A DNA stretch of 46,042 bases, from NCBI GenBank assembly GCA_030691635.1, contig JAUYEF010000194.1, forward strand, positions 1 to 46,042, written 5' to 3'. This DNA is from Bacillota bacterium (GTDB lineage: Bacteria; Bacillota; Sulfobacillia; JAUYEF01). The notes under the pieces are model-generated. The model was not told where the DNA came from. It did no database searches and was given only the letters and a program-made list of their open reading frames with translations. The position numbers and the translations under genes are program-made. Below are positions 27,668-35,329 of the stretch, piece after piece (the stretch's first letter is position 1; each line of letters opens with the position of its first letter).

Positions 27668-28975
27668 CTACCGGAAATGCTGCAGTTTCAGCCTGTATAT
27701 GTGCCTGGGCCTGCCCCTCTTGTAGGGCTGCTCCTCACCCACTGGCTCCGCCAGATCTGACGCCACCAGCTTGGAGATCAGCCTTCTCCCGCTCCGGGCC
27801 GTCACTCCCAGCGCTCTTGCCATTTCGGCCGCCGTGACTGGCTCGAACGACCTGGACCCGGCGAAAGCCAGCAGCCTGTCGATGGTTGCCACGCTGAGCC
27901 CCGTCCTCGCGGCGAGGGACCTGTATACAGTGTTCTCTGTGCGGAGGCTGTATGCCAGCGACTGGCCGGCGCCGATCGGCCCGATGATATCGCGGGAGTT
28001 CACCACTGCATGGGCGACGTCTCCACCACGCTGGTGCGAATAGTGAAGCGCTATTCTGGCGCTCGCGTGAGCGGCCGCCGCAGTCGGCCCCAGCCCCATG
28101 CCTATGCTGACCTTGAGCGGCATCTTGTTCCGGATGATCTCGAGCAACGAGGAGCGAGTCCAGTAAGACGTCGACGCCTCGACGGTCCGCCTTGTGGAAA
28201 CGATCAGGAACTCGTCGTCGCCAAGAGCCTGGAGCGATGCCTCCATCCTCTCGGCGTAGTCGAGCAGCAGCTTGTGCAGCTCCAGCTTGGTTCGCTGGAC
28301 ACCATACTCCGAACCCGAGGTCCGTAACACGTCGTCGAAATTGTCGATCTTGATCAAGGTTATCACGAGCTCAGCCTCTCTTGACCTCAAGGCCCGGCCC
28401 TCAATCACGGCCCTCGATAGGCCTTCCCGCATCGCGGTTTCGTCCGGAATGACTCTCCAAACGTCAAGGCCCATGTCATGCAGAGCAACGTACGTCGACC
28501 GCAGGCACGTCAGGGCAGAGGTCGCCCCGCTTTCAAGGCAGCCCAGGTGGAACCCGGTGAGTTCCTCCGCCGTAACCGGCCCGTGATACTCACGCACCTT
28601 TACGTTGGAGAAGTCCAGGCCCAGCCCGTTGTATATCTCTTCCAGCGCACGCTTCTCCAGCGTGTCCATGCTGATCCGGGTGAGATCCTTCTGCTTTATG
28701 GCCATTTCAAGCAGAGTCTTGTAGACACTGGACCCGGAAAATGAAATATGAAGCAGCGGGAATCGCACGTCCACCGATTTGGACGCGTAGAACGGGACAG
28801 GCCCGGTGAAGAGTGCGACGTTCATCAACGACGCATGCTTCTTAACGATGTCCGGCGCCTCGGTTTCGTGGGTATATGCCAGCCCGTGGGCCTCCAGCTC
28901 ATCGAACTCCTTGGCTATGCTCAGGACGCGCTCAACAAGGTCTGCGGGGCCTATCACTCCGGTGACGGTCTTCAT
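27668..28975 (-). CDS. GGDEF-like / winged-helix transcriptional regulator
   Basis: A 435-aa soluble protein in three parts. The first (1-200) resembles a ligand-sensing domain of the PrpR-N or periplasmic-binding type, with GPADLVERVLSIAKEFDELEA and FPLLHISFSGSSVYK. The middle (about 205-345) is a GGDEF/GTP-cyclohydrolase-III-like fold, where ALGDDEFLIV stands in for GGDEF and VSIGMGLGPTAAAAH follows. The C-terminus is a winged helix (EMARALGVTARSGRRLISKL, then KRGRPRHIYRL). The signature is GDDEF, so cyclase activity is doubtful and nucleotide sensing is more likely. ATG 28975 has GAGGG 9 nt upstream. Lying next to the ABC/GlmL cluster, it is a candidate regulator of it. Confidence 0.7.
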   Translation of the reverse strand: MKTVTGVIGPADLVERVLSIAKEFDELEAHGLAYTHETEAPDIVKKHASLMNVALFTGPVPFYASKSVDVRFPLLHISFSGSSVYKTLLEMAIKQKDLTRISMDTLEKRALEEIYNGLGLDFSNVKVREYHGPVTAEELTGFHLGCLESGATSALTCLRSTYVALHDMGLDVWRVIPDETAMREGLSRAVIEGRALRSREAELVITLIKIDNFDDVLRTSGSEYGVQRTKLELHKLLLDYAERMEASLQALGDDEFLIVSTRRTVEASTSYWTRSSLLEIIRNKMPLKVSIGMGLGPTAAAAHASARIALHYSHQRGGDVAHAVVNSRDIIGPIGAGQSLAYSLRTENTVYRSLAARTGLSVATIDRLLAFAGSRSFEPVTAAEMARALGVTARSGRRLISKLVASDLAEPVGEEQPYKRGRPRHIYRLKLQHFR

Positions 28976-29061
28976 CGCGACACACCCTCAGGAATAATGG
29001 TCTTGCCTACTTCCTTAAATCTTCGTGGTGTCCGTAAATAATCCTTCCCATGTATTTCTCA

Positions 29062-29094
29062 TTTCCTGCAAAGGAAAGGCCCTCCACCGGAGGG
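29062..29094. other. Two adjacent hairpins in the leader region of the amidase gene
   Basis: TTTCCT/AGGAAA (29062-29077) and CCCTCC/GGAGGG (29080-29094) are consecutive perfect stems, about 90-120 nt upstream of the amidase start and in the gap between divergent genes. They do not fit a riboswitch class I know. They could be part of a structured 5' leader or symmetric protein sites. Confidence 0.3.
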
Positions 29095-29182
29095 AACTAG
29101 TGCGAAGAAAGAGCGTCCGTGTCGATGGGTAGCCAAACCACCAGCGAAATCCCCCAATACCTTTAGCCTGGGAGTGTGTTCA

Positions 29183-31285
29183 TTGCGCCTCGTTTCAGCC
29201 CTTGTCGTAGCATGTCGATGGCCGAGGCGGCATCTCGCCGTCACCATCATCGTCGTCCTGGCTCTCCTGTGTACGCCCGCTGCGGCGTTGGCCGCGGTTG
29301 TTGTCGAAAAAGGGCCCGCCAACATCAGGTCAGGCCCTGGCACAAACCACCCGATCATCAAGACCGCCGCGGGTGGCGAGAGGTTCGAAGACCTGGCGCG
29401 CCAGGGTGACTGGTTCCGCATCAAAATGCCTGATGGCAAGGAAGGGTACATATACGCGCCGCTGGTCAGGGTGGAGTCGCCTGTCCAGCCGAACACCGTG
29501 GCGATACCGAAAGGCACGATGAACCTCCGCAGTGGCCCGGGGACAGGCTACGGTGTCGTCAGCCAGGTCCTCGGGGGCACGGTGCTGGCGGTCACAGCTA
29601 GATCGGGAGACTGGGTCCGCGTCAAACACGGGCAGGGGGAGGCATGGCTCGCGACTTGGCTCGCCACGGTCAAGACGCTCGACCCAGGCCAGTTCGAGGC
29701 GGGAGACCTGTCCCGGAAGGTTATCGCGTTGAAGGCCGGAGTCAGGGTCCGGCGTGGCGCTTCAGAAGAGTTCAGCGTGCTCACCACGCTCAAGGCAGGC
29801 GCCCAGGCCACGTACCTCTCGTCCAGTGACGGCTGGCACAGGATAACCACGACCGCCGGCGCCACCGGCTGGGTGGACGCAACCGACGTGCGGGTCATCA
29901 ACATCGACCCAGGCAGCGGCGTGACATATGAGGTGGGCGAGAACTACTGGCAGATGAAGGTCCAGGGAACCGGTCGCGCTCCCGGCAACGTGAACATTCG
30001 CCGGGGGCCGTCCACGGGCACGAGCGTGCTCGGCCACTTGCCGAAAGGCGGCGTCTTCCAGGTGCTCGGCTCAGAGGGCGGCTGGTACCACATACGCTAC
30101 GGCACAGTGACGGGCTATGTGGCAGGGTGGCTCGTGAAGATAGACTCGGTGAAAGGACCGTCGACCGTCCGCCTGGAGACAAGGGACTACGCCCGGAAAG
30201 TCCTCACGGTGACCGGCGACTTCCCTGTGGCGGGCACGGCGCCGTTCGACGCATCGAAGTTCGGCATCGTCACTGCCCCAAAGCTGGGCGCGAGGGGCCG
30301 GCTGGATGTTTATGCAGGCGAACTCGGCACGGTCGAACTGGGCCCGGCCGGAATCCTCCTCACGTTCGTGGAGCGGCCGTCGATGAGGGTCGTCGAGAGC
30401 AAAGCGGGTCGCTTCGTGCTCGAGCTCTTCCCCACCGTTGAGAAGGTCGCCTACGAAGATGGCCCGAGAAGCACCATCAAGATCGAGATAGCCGGCTACA
30501 CGGATCCCGTGCCTTCGTTCGACCCGGCTAAAGGCATCATCACAATCGAGCTGCCCGGTGCCGCGCTCAAGGCCCCGGTGACGCTTCCCGCAAAGGGTGT
30601 CATTTCATCAGCCTCAGCGTCGGCCAGAGGCCCGTCCACCATGATCGAAGTCAAGGTTGCGCCGGGCTCCCAGTACAATGTGAGGAAATCCCAGAACCTG
30701 ATCGTGGTCGACGCCCTGGCAAAGGGGCTGCAGGGCAAGATCATATGCCTCGATCCAGGGCACGGGGGCAAGGACCCAGGCGCCATCGGCCCGTCTCGCG
30801 CAGTCATGGAGAAGGACCCTGATCTGGTGATTTCGCAGCGCCTGAAGGCGTTTCTCGAATCTCGCGGAGCCAAGGTCATCATGACAAGGAGCACAGACGC
30901 GGAAGGCCCTGACCTGGCTTCCAGGGTAAAGGCCTGCCTCGACTCACGAGCCGACATCTTCATCTCGATACACAATAATGGCAGCACCGACCGCAGTAAG
31001 ATGGGAACCACCATCTACTACTCAGAGACAAGCCTGAATGCCGAACGAAGCAAGAAACTCGCCGAAACGCTCCAGCTCTCCATATACCCGAGGCTCGGCA
31101 CGCAGGACAACGGCGCGAGGGCTTCTGAGCTGTTTGTTACAAGGAACGCGCCCGTTACCGCAGTAGTCGCCGAACTGGTCTTCATCACCAACGCTCGCGA
31201 AGAACAGCTGCTCAAAGACCCGGCGTTCCTACAGGCTTGCGCTGAAGGGCTGTTCGCCGGCCTTCGACAGTACTTCGGTGACTGA
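29183..31285 (+). CDS. N-acetylmuramoyl-L-alanine amidase with four SH3 domains and an AMIN domain
   Basis: A 700-aa secreted peptidoglycan amidase (Amidase_3, zinc-dependent). After a signal peptide (about 1-37, ending PAAALA) come four bacterial SH3 domains (about 39-100, 104-165, 180-245 and 263-320; each with NIRSGPGT-like or equivalent motifs). Then follow an AMIN-type wall-targeting domain (about 340-505) and the catalytic domain (about 517-700). Zinc-site motifs are LDPGHGGKDPGA, MEKDPDL, SIHNN and VVAELVFITN, supplying His, Glu, His and the catalytic Glu. TTG 29183 is preferred: GGGAG lies 8 nt upstream, whereas a GTG at 29174 overlaps that site. A CheX-like gene follows 26 nt later. 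Confidence 0.92.
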   Translation: MRLVSALVVACRWPRRHLAVTIIVVLALLCTPAAALAAVVVEKGPANIRSGPGTNHPIIKTAAGGERFEDLARQGDWFRIKMPDGKEGYIYAPLVRVESPVQPNTVAIPKGTMNLRSGPGTGYGVVSQVLGGTVLAVTARSGDWVRVKHGQGEAWLATWLATVKTLDPGQFEAGDLSRKVIALKAGVRVRRGASEEFSVLTTLKAGAQATYLSSSDGWHRITTTAGATGWVDATDVRVINIDPGSGVTYEVGENYWQMKVQGTGRAPGNVNIRRGPSTGTSVLGHLPKGGVFQVLGSEGGWYHIRYGTVTGYVAGWLVKIDSVKGPSTVRLETRDYARKVLTVTGDFPVAGTAPFDASKFGIVTAPKLGARGRLDVYAGELGTVELGPAGILLTFVERPSMRVVESKAGRFVLELFPTVEKVAYEDGPRSTIKIEIAGYTDPVPSFDPAKGIITIELPGAALKAPVTLPAKGVISSASASARGPSTMIEVKVAPGSQYNVRKSQNLIVVDALAKGLQGKIICLDPGHGGKDPGAIGPSRAVMEKDPDLVISQRLKAFLESRGAKVIMTRSTDAEGPDLASRVKACLDSRADIFISIHNNGSTDRSKMGTTIYYSETSLNAERSKKLAETLQLSIYPRLGTQDNGARASELFVTRNAPVTAVVAELVFITNAREEQLLKDPAFLQACAEGLFAGLRQYFGD

Positions 31286-31311
31286 CTCTCTTCATGTGGA
31301 GGCCTCATTGC

Positions 31312-31788
31312 TTGCGGGTCGATTTCGTGAACCCCTTCATTTCCGCTGCTGTTGATGTTGTGAAAAGCACCCTGGACTGCGATCTTGATCGTGGTCCGCT
31401 GAGACTGGACGCCTCGAAAATCGCATCTGACGATGTAACCGTGGTGATCGGCGTAACCGGGGACGCTGAGGGAATCGTCATGTACGGTATGTCCGAGCGC
31501 ACGGCAAAGCAGTTCGCCACAGCCATGCTGGGCCAGCGCATGCCGGTTTTTGACGCCCTGGCGGAGAGCGCCGTAGCCGAGCTCGGGAACATGATAGCAG
31601 GGGCTGCGACGGTCGGTCTCGAAAACCAATCATATGCATGCCGTTTGACGCCTCCGACCCTCCTGTACGGTCGCGGCACGATGATCTCCCTGATCGACAT
31701 CAACAGGCTGGTCATCCCTCTCAGCTGCAAGCACGGTAAGCTCGAGATCAGCGTCGCTCTCAGAGATCACAAGAAGATTCTTTCTTAG
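31312..31788 (+). CDS. CheX-like chemotaxis phosphatase domain protein
   Basis: A 158-aa CheX/CheC-family protein beginning VDFVNPFISAAVDVVKSTL. The helix AESAVAELGNMIAGAA carries the E-x2-N pair used by CheX to dephosphorylate CheY-P. The start is TTG 31312 with GGAGG 9 nt upstream; an ATG at 31294 would overlap that site. No other chemotaxis genes are in the window, so it may act on a response regulator encoded elsewhere or in another envelope signalling route. It follows the amidase gene by 26 nt and is probably cotranscribed with it. Confidence 0.85.
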   Translation: MRVDFVNPFISAAVDVVKSTLDCDLDRGPLRLDASKIASDDVTVVIGVTGDAEGIVMYGMSERTAKQFATAMLGQRMPVFDALAESAVAELGNMIAGAATVGLENQSYACRLTPPTLLYGRGTMISLIDINRLVIPLSCKHGKLEISVALRDHKKILS

Positions 31789-31812
31789 CAAGATTTACCT
31801 GCGCTGCTATCA

Positions 31813-31842
31813 TTGACGAAACTTCGACTACCGTGCTAGTCT
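31813..31842 (+). promoter_or_regulatory. Promoter upstream of the c-di-AMP riboswitch
   Basis: TTGACG (31813-31818) and TAGTCT (31837-31842) are 18 bp apart, with a TG extension just before the -10. Transcription should begin near 31849, about 19 nt before the first riboswitch helix. Confidence 0.55.
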
Positions 31843-31865
31843 CTTAGGTGAGATTCGACAAACAT

Positions 31866-31973
31866 AGAGGCCTAATCCCAGGAATGGGAACGGGGGAACC
31901 ACTACCAGGGGTGAATTCGGAAGGAAGGGCTGCCTTCTCGGCCCTAACCCGTCAGCTAACCTCGTAGGCCTGC
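31866..31973 (+). ncRNA. ydaO/yuaA-type (c-di-AMP) riboswitch aptamer
   Basis: Conserved core elements appear in order: AATCCCAGGAATGGGAACGG from 31874, GGGGGAACCA, GGGGTGAAT (31908-31916) and the hallmark GTCAGCTAACCTCGTAGGC (31951-31969). The closing helix P1 pairs AGGCCTA (31868-31874) with TAGGCCT (31965-31971) perfectly. This class binds cyclic di-AMP and usually turns genes off, often genes for cell-wall hydrolases, osmolyte and potassium transport. Here it leads the 125-aa gene at 32015. Confidence 0.88.
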
Positions 31974-31987
31974 GAGAGGGGGCAAGG

Positions 31988-32004
31988 AGCCTCCCCAGGA
32001 GGCT
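31988..32004 (+). promoter_or_regulatory. Hairpin that hides the ribosome binding site (expression platform)
   Basis: AGCCTCC (31988-31994) pairs with GGAGGCT (31998-32004), which contains the AGGAGG ribosome binding site for the ATG at 32015. No T-run follows, so translational control fits better than termination. A competing stem, GGGGGC (31978-31983) with GCCTCC (31989-31994), would free the site and lies just after aptamer P1. Confidence 0.5.
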
Positions 32005-32014
32005 TCGCTGTTCC

Positions 32015-32392
32015 ATGGAGGAAACCAGGAAATCGAGCAGGCAACGGCTCAGGGAATGCTGGCACGTACTGGACTCTCTATCGGGAAGCAGAGTTTCGAT
32101 GATCGTGCGGCCGTCGGTTTTTGAGGTCGAGGATGTTGGAAAGGACGCTGTCACAGTAAGGTCGAGCACCGGAAGGATGTTCAGCATCCCTATCACGCAG
32201 GTGAGGGGTGTGCTGCAGCACGTTTTCGCCTCGTCCCAGATCTCACTGCACGAAACCAGGGTCAGGTATTCCAAGGACCACGCAGAGTTCATTTTCGGGC
32301 TGGTCGCGCGTCTGCCTGGCATCAGAGTGCTGCAGTGCGGGCTCGGTCTCGTGCTCGTGTTGGACCAGCTCCAGACGGCGATGCCGGCGTAA
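32015..32392 (+). CDS. Unknown 125-aa protein under c-di-AMP riboswitch control
   Basis: A small, soluble, basic-to-neutral protein: a charged N-terminal helix (ETRKSSRQRLRECWHVLDSL), then beta-rich stretches (RPSVFEVEDVGKDAVTVRSS, RMFSIPITQVRGVLQHVF) and a hydrophobic end (IRVLQCGLGLVLVLDQL). No signal peptide or membrane helix is evident and I recognise no family. ATG 32015 has AGGAGG 12 nt upstream, inside the hairpin described above. The riboswitch implies a job in wall, turgor or osmolyte homeostasis; that is inference from the RNA only. Confidence 0.6.
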   Translation: MEETRKSSRQRLRECWHVLDSLSGSRVSMIVRPSVFEVEDVGKDAVTVRSSTGRMFSIPITQVRGVLQHVFASSQISLHETRVRYSKDHAEFIFGLVARLPGIRVLQCGLGLVLVLDQLQTAMPA

Positions 32393-32466
32393 GTCTTCTC
32401 CGGCTATGGGTCTTCAGCGACTCATTCATCCAGTTCCGGTCGTATCCATGGGGCTGTCTCTCAGAC

Positions 32467-32522
32467 GTACAGCTGCATTTTCGCTGTACAGCGGGGGAAG
32501 GCCCCGCGGCGCATTTTCCCCC
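32467..32522 (+). other. Two hairpins upstream of the dehydratase gene
   Basis: GTACAGC/GCTGTAC (32467-32489, 9-nt loop) and GGGGGAA/TTCCCCC (32493-32522, 16-nt loop) are perfect 7-bp stems. They lie in the 191-bp gap before the threonine dehydratase-like gene. The T-run needed for termination is missing. A structured leader or attenuator is possible. Confidence 0.3.
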
Positions 32523-32583
32523 AGGCAGGATAAGCCAAGCACGAGGTTGAAAAATGTTCACAACGACAACGAGGAAGTGACAG

Positions 32584-33558
32584 ATGATGCCGGACTTGGT
32601 CCCGCCAACAATCCAGGATGTGTTCAAAGCGCGAGCCACAATCAGGCGCTATATCCCTCCCACGCCGCTCATCAAGCCGTGGGCGCTCTGCGATCATCTC
32701 GGCGCAGAGGTCTATGTGAAGTGTGAGAACATGCAGCCCATAGGCGCTTTCAAGGTCCGCGGGGGCATCTACCTGATGTCCACGCTGTCTCAGGAAGAAC
32801 GCAGCAAGGGCGTCGTGACGGCTTCGACCGGCAATCACGGGCAGTCGGTGGCATACTCGGCCCGGCTGTTCGGCGTGCACGCCGTGATCTACGCCCCGAT
32901 CGGCGCCAACCCGTTCAAGGTGGCGTCGATGAGATCGCTGGGCGCAGAGGTCCGTCTCGAGGGCAGAGACTATGAGGAGTCGCGCGAGGCCTCCGAGGAA
33001 GCGGCGCGCAGGGAAGGCTTCAGGTACATCCACGCCGTGAACGAGCCGAAACTGTTCGCGGGGGTGGGAACGATCGGTTTGGAGATCCTGGAGGAAGTCC
33101 CGGACATCGACTTCATCATAGTGCCCATCGGCGGCGGGAGCGGCTGCTCCGGCACGGGCATCGTCGCCAAGGCCCTGCGTCCGGAGGCGAAAGTGATCGG
33201 GGTACAGGCCGAGCAGGCGCCCGCGGTGTACCGGTCATGGCAGACGAAGAAGATCACGTCCACGGGGCCGGTCAACACCTTCGCCGACGGTCTAGCCACC
33301 AGGCAGACGTATCAGTTCGCCCTCGATGTCCTGAGCAGAGTGGTGGACGACATGGTGCTTGTCTCTGAAGAAGAGATGGAGCGCGGCATACTGACGCTGG
33401 CCGAGACGGCCCACCTTGTGGCCGAGGGCGCGGGAGCCGCGTCAACCGCCGCGGCATTCAAGATCAAGGACCGTATCCAGGGCAAGAAGGTCGCTCTAGT
33501 GCTGAGCGGCGGTAACCTCACCATCGACAAGCTGAAGGAGATTGCTCGGAAGTACTGA
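32584..33558 (+). CDS. PLP-dependent threonine/serine dehydratase-like enzyme
   Basis: A 324-aa fold-type II PLP enzyme. In this family threonine ammonia-lyase converts threonine to 2-oxobutanoate and ammonia. Seen are IPPTPLIKPWAL, the PLP lysine in IGAFKVRGG, STGNHGQSVAYSA and the phosphate-binding Gly loop PIGGGSGCSGTG. GEGA-like VAEGAGAAS and ALVLSGGNL near the C-terminus are also present. There is no C-terminal ACT domain, so it is the short catabolic-type or EutB-like form rather than allosteric IlvA. GAGGAAG precedes tandem ATG codons. The physiological substrate cannot be settled from sequence. Confidence 0.85.
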   Translation: MMPDLVPPTIQDVFKARATIRRYIPPTPLIKPWALCDHLGAEVYVKCENMQPIGAFKVRGGIYLMSTLSQEERSKGVVTASTGNHGQSVAYSARLFGVHAVIYAPIGANPFKVASMRSLGAEVRLEGRDYEESREASEEAARREGFRYIHAVNEPKLFAGVGTIGLEILEEVPDIDFIIVPIGGGSGCSGTGIVAKALRPEAKVIGVQAEQAPAVYRSWQTKKITSTGPVNTFADGLATRQTYQFALDVLSRVVDDMVLVSEEEMERGILTLAETAHLVAEGAGAASTAAAFKIKDRIQGKKVALVLSGGNLTIDKLKEIARKY

Positions 33559-33581
33559 GGTCGGCGGCGGCCGGTTAGCAC

Positions 33582-33769
33582 GGATGTGACTTCCGGAAGG
33601 ACACTTCTCCTGAAGAACTATCTGCCGGGAATCTAGTTCTTCGGGCTATCTATACTCCAGGAAGACAGTTGGGATGGATCTGACTTCCGGGAAGCTAGTT
33701 CCGCCGAACATCTAGCTGCCGCGAAGCTAGTTCCTCGGGTAATCTATACACCTAGAAGACAGATGGGCC
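33582..33769. repeat. 94-bp repeat family, copy region 2
   Basis: Two tandem units (33582-33675 and 33676-33769), each about 94 bp, start GGATGTGACTTCCGG and GGATCTGACTTCCGG. Both run through matching blocks such as CTAGTTC and CTATACxCC to GAAGACAG. The same unit is at 7458-7583. Three 31- to 32-bp subunits per unit are visible. They fill most of the gap between the dehydratase and phoU genes, which converge. Confidence 0.7.
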
Positions 33770-33842
33770 GGGAAGACCGGGCCGCATCCGCCAGTTACCG
33801 CATCCGAGCGCAACCCAAAGCCTCCCCACTCGGACGTGGGCC

Positions 33843-34502
33843 TCAATCGGCGTTCAGCTCCGAATACACGCCGGTTGTGATGTAGAGCGAGCGCTCCGCG
33901 ACGTTCGTCGCCAGGTCTGCGATCCTTTCAACCGCCTGGGCAGCCATGATCAAGTAGGTCGCCCGGGCGATTGTCTTCGGATCGGCCATCATGAAGATAA
34001 GAAGCTCGCGGAAGACCTGGTTATACAAACCATCAACGATCGCGTCGCGTTCACACAGTCTCTTGGCCAGCTCATCGTCCTCTTCCACGAGCGACGTCAG
34101 CGCATCGCGGAGCATGCCGGTGGCCACCTCGGTCATCCTGGGGATGTCTATCAGGGGTTTGAGAAGGGGCTCACCGGCGTGCCTCAGCACGATGGAGGCG
34201 ATGTCATCGGCATGGTCACCGATGCGCTCGAGGTCGGTCGCTATCGAGAAGGCGGCCATGATGACTCGAAGGTCCCGCGCCACCGGTTGTTGCGTGGCTA
34301 TGAGCCTCAGGCATTTTCTCTCGATCTCGATACGCTGGTGGTCTATGATCTCGTCCATCGTTATGACGTCTTCGGCGACGTTCGGATCGAGCAACCGGAG
34401 CGACTCGATGGACAGGTTGACAGACCGGACGACATACTCGCCCATTTCGACCAGCTGTGCCTTCAGCTCGTTGATTTCCTGAGCCAGAAAGCCCCTCGGC
34501 AT
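33843..34502 (-). CDS. phoU: Phosphate transport system regulator PhoU
   Basis: A 219-aa all-helical PhoU protein made of two three-helix bundles. It shows the metal-binding family motifs in DEIIDHQRIEIERKCL with RVIMAAFSIATDLERIGDHADDIAS, and again near the C-terminus in LIMAAQAVERIADLATNVAERS. PhoU links the Pst transporter to the PhoR/PhoB (PhoP) phosphate signal and restrains uptake. ATG 34502 has GAGGGG about 11 nt upstream; an ATG six codons earlier is also possible. Last gene of the pst operon. Confidence 0.93.
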   Translation of the reverse strand: MPRGFLAQEINELKAQLVEMGEYVVRSVNLSIESLRLLDPNVAEDVITMDEIIDHQRIEIERKCLRLIATQQPVARDLRVIMAAFSIATDLERIGDHADDIASIVLRHAGEPLLKPLIDIPRMTEVATGMLRDALTSLVEEDDELAKRLCERDAIVDGLYNQVFRELLIFMMADPKTIARATYLIMAAQAVERIADLATNVAERSLYITTGVYSELNAD

Positions 34503-34579
34503 TGTGGTAAGCCCCCTCATCCCAGTGTCTTGCCTCTCACCGTATCTCGGCCAAGCCTCAACCGTATCTCAGACGGATC

Positions 34580-35329
34580 TCAACCGTACCGGCCGCTGAT
34601 GTAGTCCTCGGTCCTCTTGTCGCTCGGACTTGTGAACATCATAAGCGTGGGTCCGACTTCGATTATCTGCCCTGACAACATGAAGACAGTCGTTTCGGAA
34701 ACACGGGCGGCCTGCTGCATGTTATGAGTCACGACGATCACGCTGTACTCTTTGGAGAGTCTCCTCATCAATTCCTCTATGTGGAGAGTCGTCTCGGGGT
34801 CCAGGGCAGAGCACGGCTCGTCGAACAGGATGACTTCGGGATTCGTCGCGATCACCCTGGCGATGCACAGCTGTTGTTGTTGTCCCAAGGAAAGCTCGAG
34901 CGCAGGAGAAAGCAGCCTGTCCTTCACTCTGTGCCAGAGGTCGCTTGCCACCAGGCTTTCCTCGACGATGGCCGGGATCTGCGATGCCGGCACCGAATGC
35001 ATCCTCGGGCCCATCGCGACGTTGTCGAAGACCGAGAACGGGAATGGGTTGGGCCGCTGGAACACCATCCCGATGAGGCTCCTGAGGGCCACCAGATCGG
35101 TCGCGGGCATGTATATGTCCTCACCCCGGAACAGGACCTGCCCGGTAACCCGGGCGCCGAGGTGGTCGTTCATCCGGTTGAGCGTGCGCAGGAGCGTGGA
35201 CTTGCCGCAGCCGGATGGCCCGATGACTGAGGTGACGCGGCGGTCGGCAAACCCGACATTGACGCCCTTCAGCGCCTGGTACGTGCCGTAATACAGGTTC
35301 AGGTTGACTGTCTCAATGACTCCGGACAC
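34580..35329 (-). CDS. pstB: Phosphate ABC transporter ATPase, second PstB copy
   Basis: A 249-aa PstB with Walker A GPSGCGKST, Q-loop GMVFQRPNPFPFSVFDNVAMG, Walker B VILFDEPCSALDP and H-loop VVTHNMQQAARV, all standard for PstB. The ABC signature is unusual: LSLGQQQQL replaces LSGGQQQR. The neighbouring PstB copy has the normal signature but an altered Q-loop, so the two changes could fall in the same composite site of a heterodimer. The gene lies 15 nt after the first pstB. Confidence 0.9.
   Translation of the reverse strand: MSGVIETVNLNLYYGTYQALKGVNVGFADRRVTSVIGPSGCGKSTLLRTLNRMNDHLGARVTGQVLFRGEDIYMPATDLVALRSLIGMVFQRPNPFPFSVFDNVAMGPRMHSVPASQIPAIVEESLVASDLWHRVKDRLLSPALELSLGQQQQLCIARVIATNPEVILFDEPCSALDPETTLHIEELMRRLSKEYSVIVVTHNMQQAARVSETTVFMLSGQIIEVGPTLMMFTSPSDKRTEDYISGRYG

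Follow-up and report, generated by a model that had tools for sequence, protein, structure and literature searches.

A c-di-AMP riboswitch in the leader of a lineage-specific orphan gene of a Bacillota bacterium

The window analysed here, a stretch of 46,042 nucleotides (46 kb) that is one entire contig of a 3.84-Mb Bacillota assembly, carries a c-di-AMP (ydaO/yuaA) riboswitch in the 5′ leader of a same-strand ORF with coding usage. By sequence and structure criteria the aptamer is established as genuine and as an ordinary representative of a well-known family of sensors; it presumably binds c-di-AMP. The aptamer class is known, and the target here is an orphan 125-aa ORF which the riboswitch likely controls. 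In the best explanation, to which we give about an even chance, it is the leader of a lineage-specific gene and acts most likely on translation, with c-di-AMP expected to turn the gene off.

The aptamer was identified with cmscan against Rfam 15. The match to RF00379 scored 95.2 bits (E 2.3e-21; gathering cut-off 38 bits) and spans model positions 1-134 of 134, including the 15-nt 3′ flank (Table 1). An earlier sequence-only reading of this DNA had proposed a c-di-AMP riboswitch with a perfect P1, and the covariance model bears this out. The five pairs of P1 (A31868-U31971, followed by G-C, G-C, C-G and C-G) are all standard, as are the six pairs of the adjoining helix (31890-31895/31960-31965). 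In its full-length covariance match, P1, conserved junctions and 3′ flank, the aptamer itself is no different from the RF00379 family, and its score is among the better ones of the bacterial class; what differs in the window is an orphan target and a platform without a terminator. The aptamer is the sole Rfam match within the window, and a permissive scan of 28976-34600 returned nothing beyond it. The assembly, 97% complete, holds one copy. A diadenylate cyclase domain (PF02457, 152.6 bits) is encoded elsewhere in the genome, so c-di-AMP is likely available in the host.

Table 1. Coordinates of the riboswitch, its downstream elements and the presumed target (positions in the window).
Feature	Position	Strand	Basis or remark
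c-di-AMP (ydaO/yuaA) aptamer	31859-31985	+	full-length RF00379 match, 95.2 bits
P1 5′ strand, AGGCC	31868-31872	+	perfect pairing with 31967-31971
P1 3′ strand, GGCCU	31967-31971	+	pairs with 31868-31872
Possible anti-P1 hairpin, CUCGUA-GGCC-UGCGAG	31961-31976	+	minimum-energy fold of 31953-32030
Candidate promoter, TTAGCA-N17-TATCAT, TG before the -10 hexamer	31785-31813	+	consensus scan
Alternative stem of the sequence-only reading, GGGGGC/GCCUCC, would leave the SD unpaired	31978-31994	+	predicted co-transcriptional fold
SD-masking hairpin, ends at the base before the start codon	31979-32014	+	predicted fold, -22.0 to -23.4 kcal/mol
Shine-Dalgarno (SD) AGGAGG, 12 nt from ATG 32015	31997-32002	+	sequence
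125-aa orphan ORF, presumed target	32015-32392	+	coding-like codon usage

Two genes lie upstream on the same strand, a wall amidase (Amidase_3 and SH3 repeats, 29174-31285) and a CheX phosphatase gene (31294-31788). The target had been described as adjoining a wall amidase and a CheX-like gene. Both are indeed present, but since they precede the riboswitch they are not regulated by it and cannot be its targets. In a synteny check of CheX relatives, 13 surrounding loci were without a riboswitch. The candidate promoter, which overlaps the CheX stop codon, matches the consensus at 9 of 12 positions and constitutes weak evidence, with one site found against 0.4 expected; if true, the riboswitch would form a transcription unit by itself. 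On the opposite strand, some 2.9 kb away, 27668-28975 (-) encodes a protein of 435 aa. It scores 32.5 bits (cut-off 30) against PF24898, a GdpP-like GGDEF domain, and its C-terminus weakly resembles a helix-turn-helix.

In agreement with the sequence-only reading, a scan of 31250-32700 detected no terminator-like site, and no U-tract or T-run follows the SD hairpin. The kdpFABC riboswitch of Bacillus thuringiensis likewise has an aptamer of this class in its 5′ leader, but there a hairpin with a U-tract makes a transcriptional OFF switch (PMC6488665), whereas the window leader is without a U-tract. The leader could nevertheless act on transcription, by a terminator without a U-tract or by a termination factor, with the SD hairpin as part of the terminator. 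A strong GC-rich hairpin does stand right after the aptamer, and hairpin-plus-T terminators are found at 33 or more of the 90 class loci surveyed below. However, those terminating relatives do carry the T-run that is missing here, and we consider transcriptional control distinctly unlikely.

Action on translation appears most likely because a terminator is absent and a hairpin immediately preceding the start codon encloses a perfect SD. In the predicted fold this hairpin has 9 bp (31986-31994/31998-32006), extended by six pairs (31979-31984/32009-32014). Compared with shuffled sequence, its stability is only modestly raised (z -1.59; 11 of 200 shuffles were as stable), and the masking of this SD ranks 6 of 35 among putative SD-preceded starts in the window. 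The proposal that one stem hides AGGAGG while an alternative stem next to P1 would free it agrees with the predicted fold in its first half. The alternative stem (31978-31983/31989-31994) is also drawable and gives the most stable fold of 31972-31995 alone, at -10.4 kcal/mol, but it is displaced by the SD hairpin once the SD strand is transcribed and loses at full length. Its ligand-dependent release of the SD found no support: the SD is paired in minimum-energy folds, whether the aptamer is formed or not. The predicted cost of opening the SD is 5.3-6.1 kcal/mol when the aptamer is formed or only the post-P1 sequence is folded, and 6.9-7.4 kcal/mol when P1 is open or the leader is folded without constraints, in models that ignore aptamer tertiary structure and pseudoknots, ligand energy and folding kinetics. 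The small bias favours exposure with the aptamer formed, opposite to the characterised c-di-AMP OFF switches. Calibration of nearest-neighbour folding against 26 SD-adjacent members of the class gave no consistent switch direction; folding is therefore unable to settle the direction, and none is claimed from it. The ribosome-site hairpin may be a working on/off switch, but the modelled energetics lend this no support.

Strand exchange would make the alternative stem beside P1 the switch itself, releasing AGGAGG in a ligand-dependent manner. Strictly drawn, c-di-AMP would then turn the gene on, since P1 formation would free GCGAG and the G-run and favour exposure. The stem exists in predicted folds, opening the SD is 1-2 kcal/mol cheaper with the aptamer formed, and GCGAG (31972-31976), otherwise held in the anti-P1 hairpin, takes part in the best of the SD-open folds. 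The anti-P1 hairpin, at about -6.8 kcal/mol in the minimum-energy fold, might compete both with P1 and with the aptamer helix next to it. However, the SD is masked in both states, the difference lies within the error of a model blind to pseudoknots, ligand energy and kinetics, and the characterised member is an OFF switch (PMC6488665). Ligand-dependent exchange seems quite improbable. Still less probable, and indeed very doubtful, is its extension to a translational ON switch, in which P1 formation would free GCGAG and the G-run, GGGGGC/GCCUCC would expose AGGAGG and an orphan c-di-AMP effector would be activated.

In the favoured account, a translational leader with c-di-AMP as the OFF signal, the riboswitch would probably have a promoter of its own immediately downstream of CheX, the aptamer would form the 5′ leader of the 125-aa gene, and this leader would most likely act on translation of the ORF. 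By analogy with characterised family members, c-di-AMP would be expected to lower expression. Any coupling between aptamer and SD would probably be co-transcriptional (kinetic), via a transient GGGGGC/GCCUCC stem. The aptamer, the predicted hairpin, the absent intrinsic-terminator-like site and the c-di-AMP synthase gene are the directly supported parts of this account, which also draws support from class relatives, where the start codon often lies beside the aptamer. It is weakened because SD opening hardly differs between modelled states, with a bias opposite to OFF, and because the start codon is uncertain (ATG 32015 or ATG 32099).

The 125-aa frame has a codon usage score of 29.5 bits; of 1010 windows of equal length, read in wrong frames of neighbouring genes, only 4 score as high. 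Codons 29-125 account for the signal (+34.5 bits, typical), whereas codons 1-28 have a non-coding look (-5.0 bits), so the in-frame ATG 32099 is a possible alternative start. The encoded protein, already described as uncharacterised in the sequence-only reading, gave no profile match in Pfam, NCBIfam, PHROGs or PADLOC. No relatives were found among PDB sequences, plasmids, phages, genome and viral contigs, or in 154 class and 399 phylum genomes, and searches of class and phylum genomes yielded no related locus with the same leader and ORF. Judged by these searches, it is a lineage-specific small gene, an orphan. Weak homologue matches (E 0.001-0.1) were unrelated proteins or spurious-looking frames, and a P-II match (E 0.38) was taken as chance; the c-di-AMP receptor profile PF06153 did not match. 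A single-sequence AlphaFold2 model (mean pLDDT 43) was unusable and was set aside. No signal peptide is evident by eye, so the protein is probably cytoplasmic. Control by the riboswitch would tie to the c-di-AMP network one uncharacterised lineage-specific protein, whose gene is the only one in the genome to carry this riboswitch; the protein may have a role in osmotic or wall homeostasis.

The target need not be this ORF alone, or as drawn. The transcript could run on into a threonine-dehydratase-like gene (32584-33558), from which no terminator separates the 125-aa ORF; however, a gap of 192 nt intervenes, and PLP-dependent lyases are absent among the 25 most frequent of the 42 families matched downstream of class riboswitches. 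Alternatively, translation could start at ATG 32099, in which case AGGAGG would not be the ribosome site. The codon signal is consistent with this start, but the perfect AGGAGG favours ATG 32015, and some neighbouring genes also show a weak N-terminal codon signal. Such a revision of the target is, on balance, unlikely. Between the dehydratase-like gene and phoU, 33574-33761 contains two tandem 94-nt copies that are 76% identical.

A decaying remnant, which has lost its original target and now controls nothing useful, would fit the orphan ORF, an SD masked in every modelled state and the single copy in the genome. Against this, the aptamer is intact, with a score that stands high in its class, and the ORF keeps coding usage; decay is highly improbable.

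In the class survey, at least one RF00379 match over the cut-off was present in 52 of 61 genomes, our own included. An automatic scheme sorted the 90 loci that were read in detail into 33 with hairpin-plus-T terminators, 26 SD-adjacent ones (heuristically, a called start codon at most 20 nt from the aptamer 3′ end) and 31 others; these counts are rough, as some starts are doubtful and several of the others visibly carry T-runs. Even on rough counts, a translational layout is common in this class. The expectation that a translational platform would be less usual is weakened by the 26 SD-adjacent loci and by a review that lists ydaO among translational riboswitch classes (PMC10907184). The survey yields c-di-AMP riboswitches that are likely translational and suited to comparative tests of this less-studied mode.

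SD-adjacent relatives in the class (for example L033, L037, L048, L087) resemble the window in having no terminator and a start soon after the aptamer. Their AGGAGG lies in the purine-rich aptamer tail, ~8 nt from P1, whereas that of the window lies ~25 nt from P1 in a separate hairpin. Two leaders before CAP-domain proteins (L086, L088) show the same order as the window, with G-rich tail, C-rich strand and AGGAGG, and likewise no terminator was found in them. However, their SD is cheaper to open (1.9-4.1 against 5.3-7.4 kcal/mol), and their target belongs to a known family, unlike the orphan of the window.

Among the 83 downstream proteins of the class, the most frequent families include octopine dehydrogenase (19), D-Ala-D-Ala-ligase-like (10), peptidoglycan-binding (9), 3D domain (7), amino-acid permease (5), Cell Wall Hydrolase (5) and KdpA (4). 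Octopine/opine dehydrogenase-like genes are thus the commonest target (for example L006, L039 and L061); in the papers searched, "c-di-AMP riboswitch" and "opine dehydrogenase" were never mentioned together. At two loci of one family (L069:2128-2454, - strand; L047:2789-3118, + strand) a gene for a c-di-AMP receptor (PF06153, P-II-like) follows the riboswitch, an arrangement which suggests that the messenger may control its own receptor there. Finally, the SD-adjacent c-di-AMP riboswitches at L033, L034, L036 and L037 are followed by proteins whose N-termini resemble one another. The L033 protein matches the GNAT acetyltransferase family, and one guess is an osmolyte acetyltransferase.
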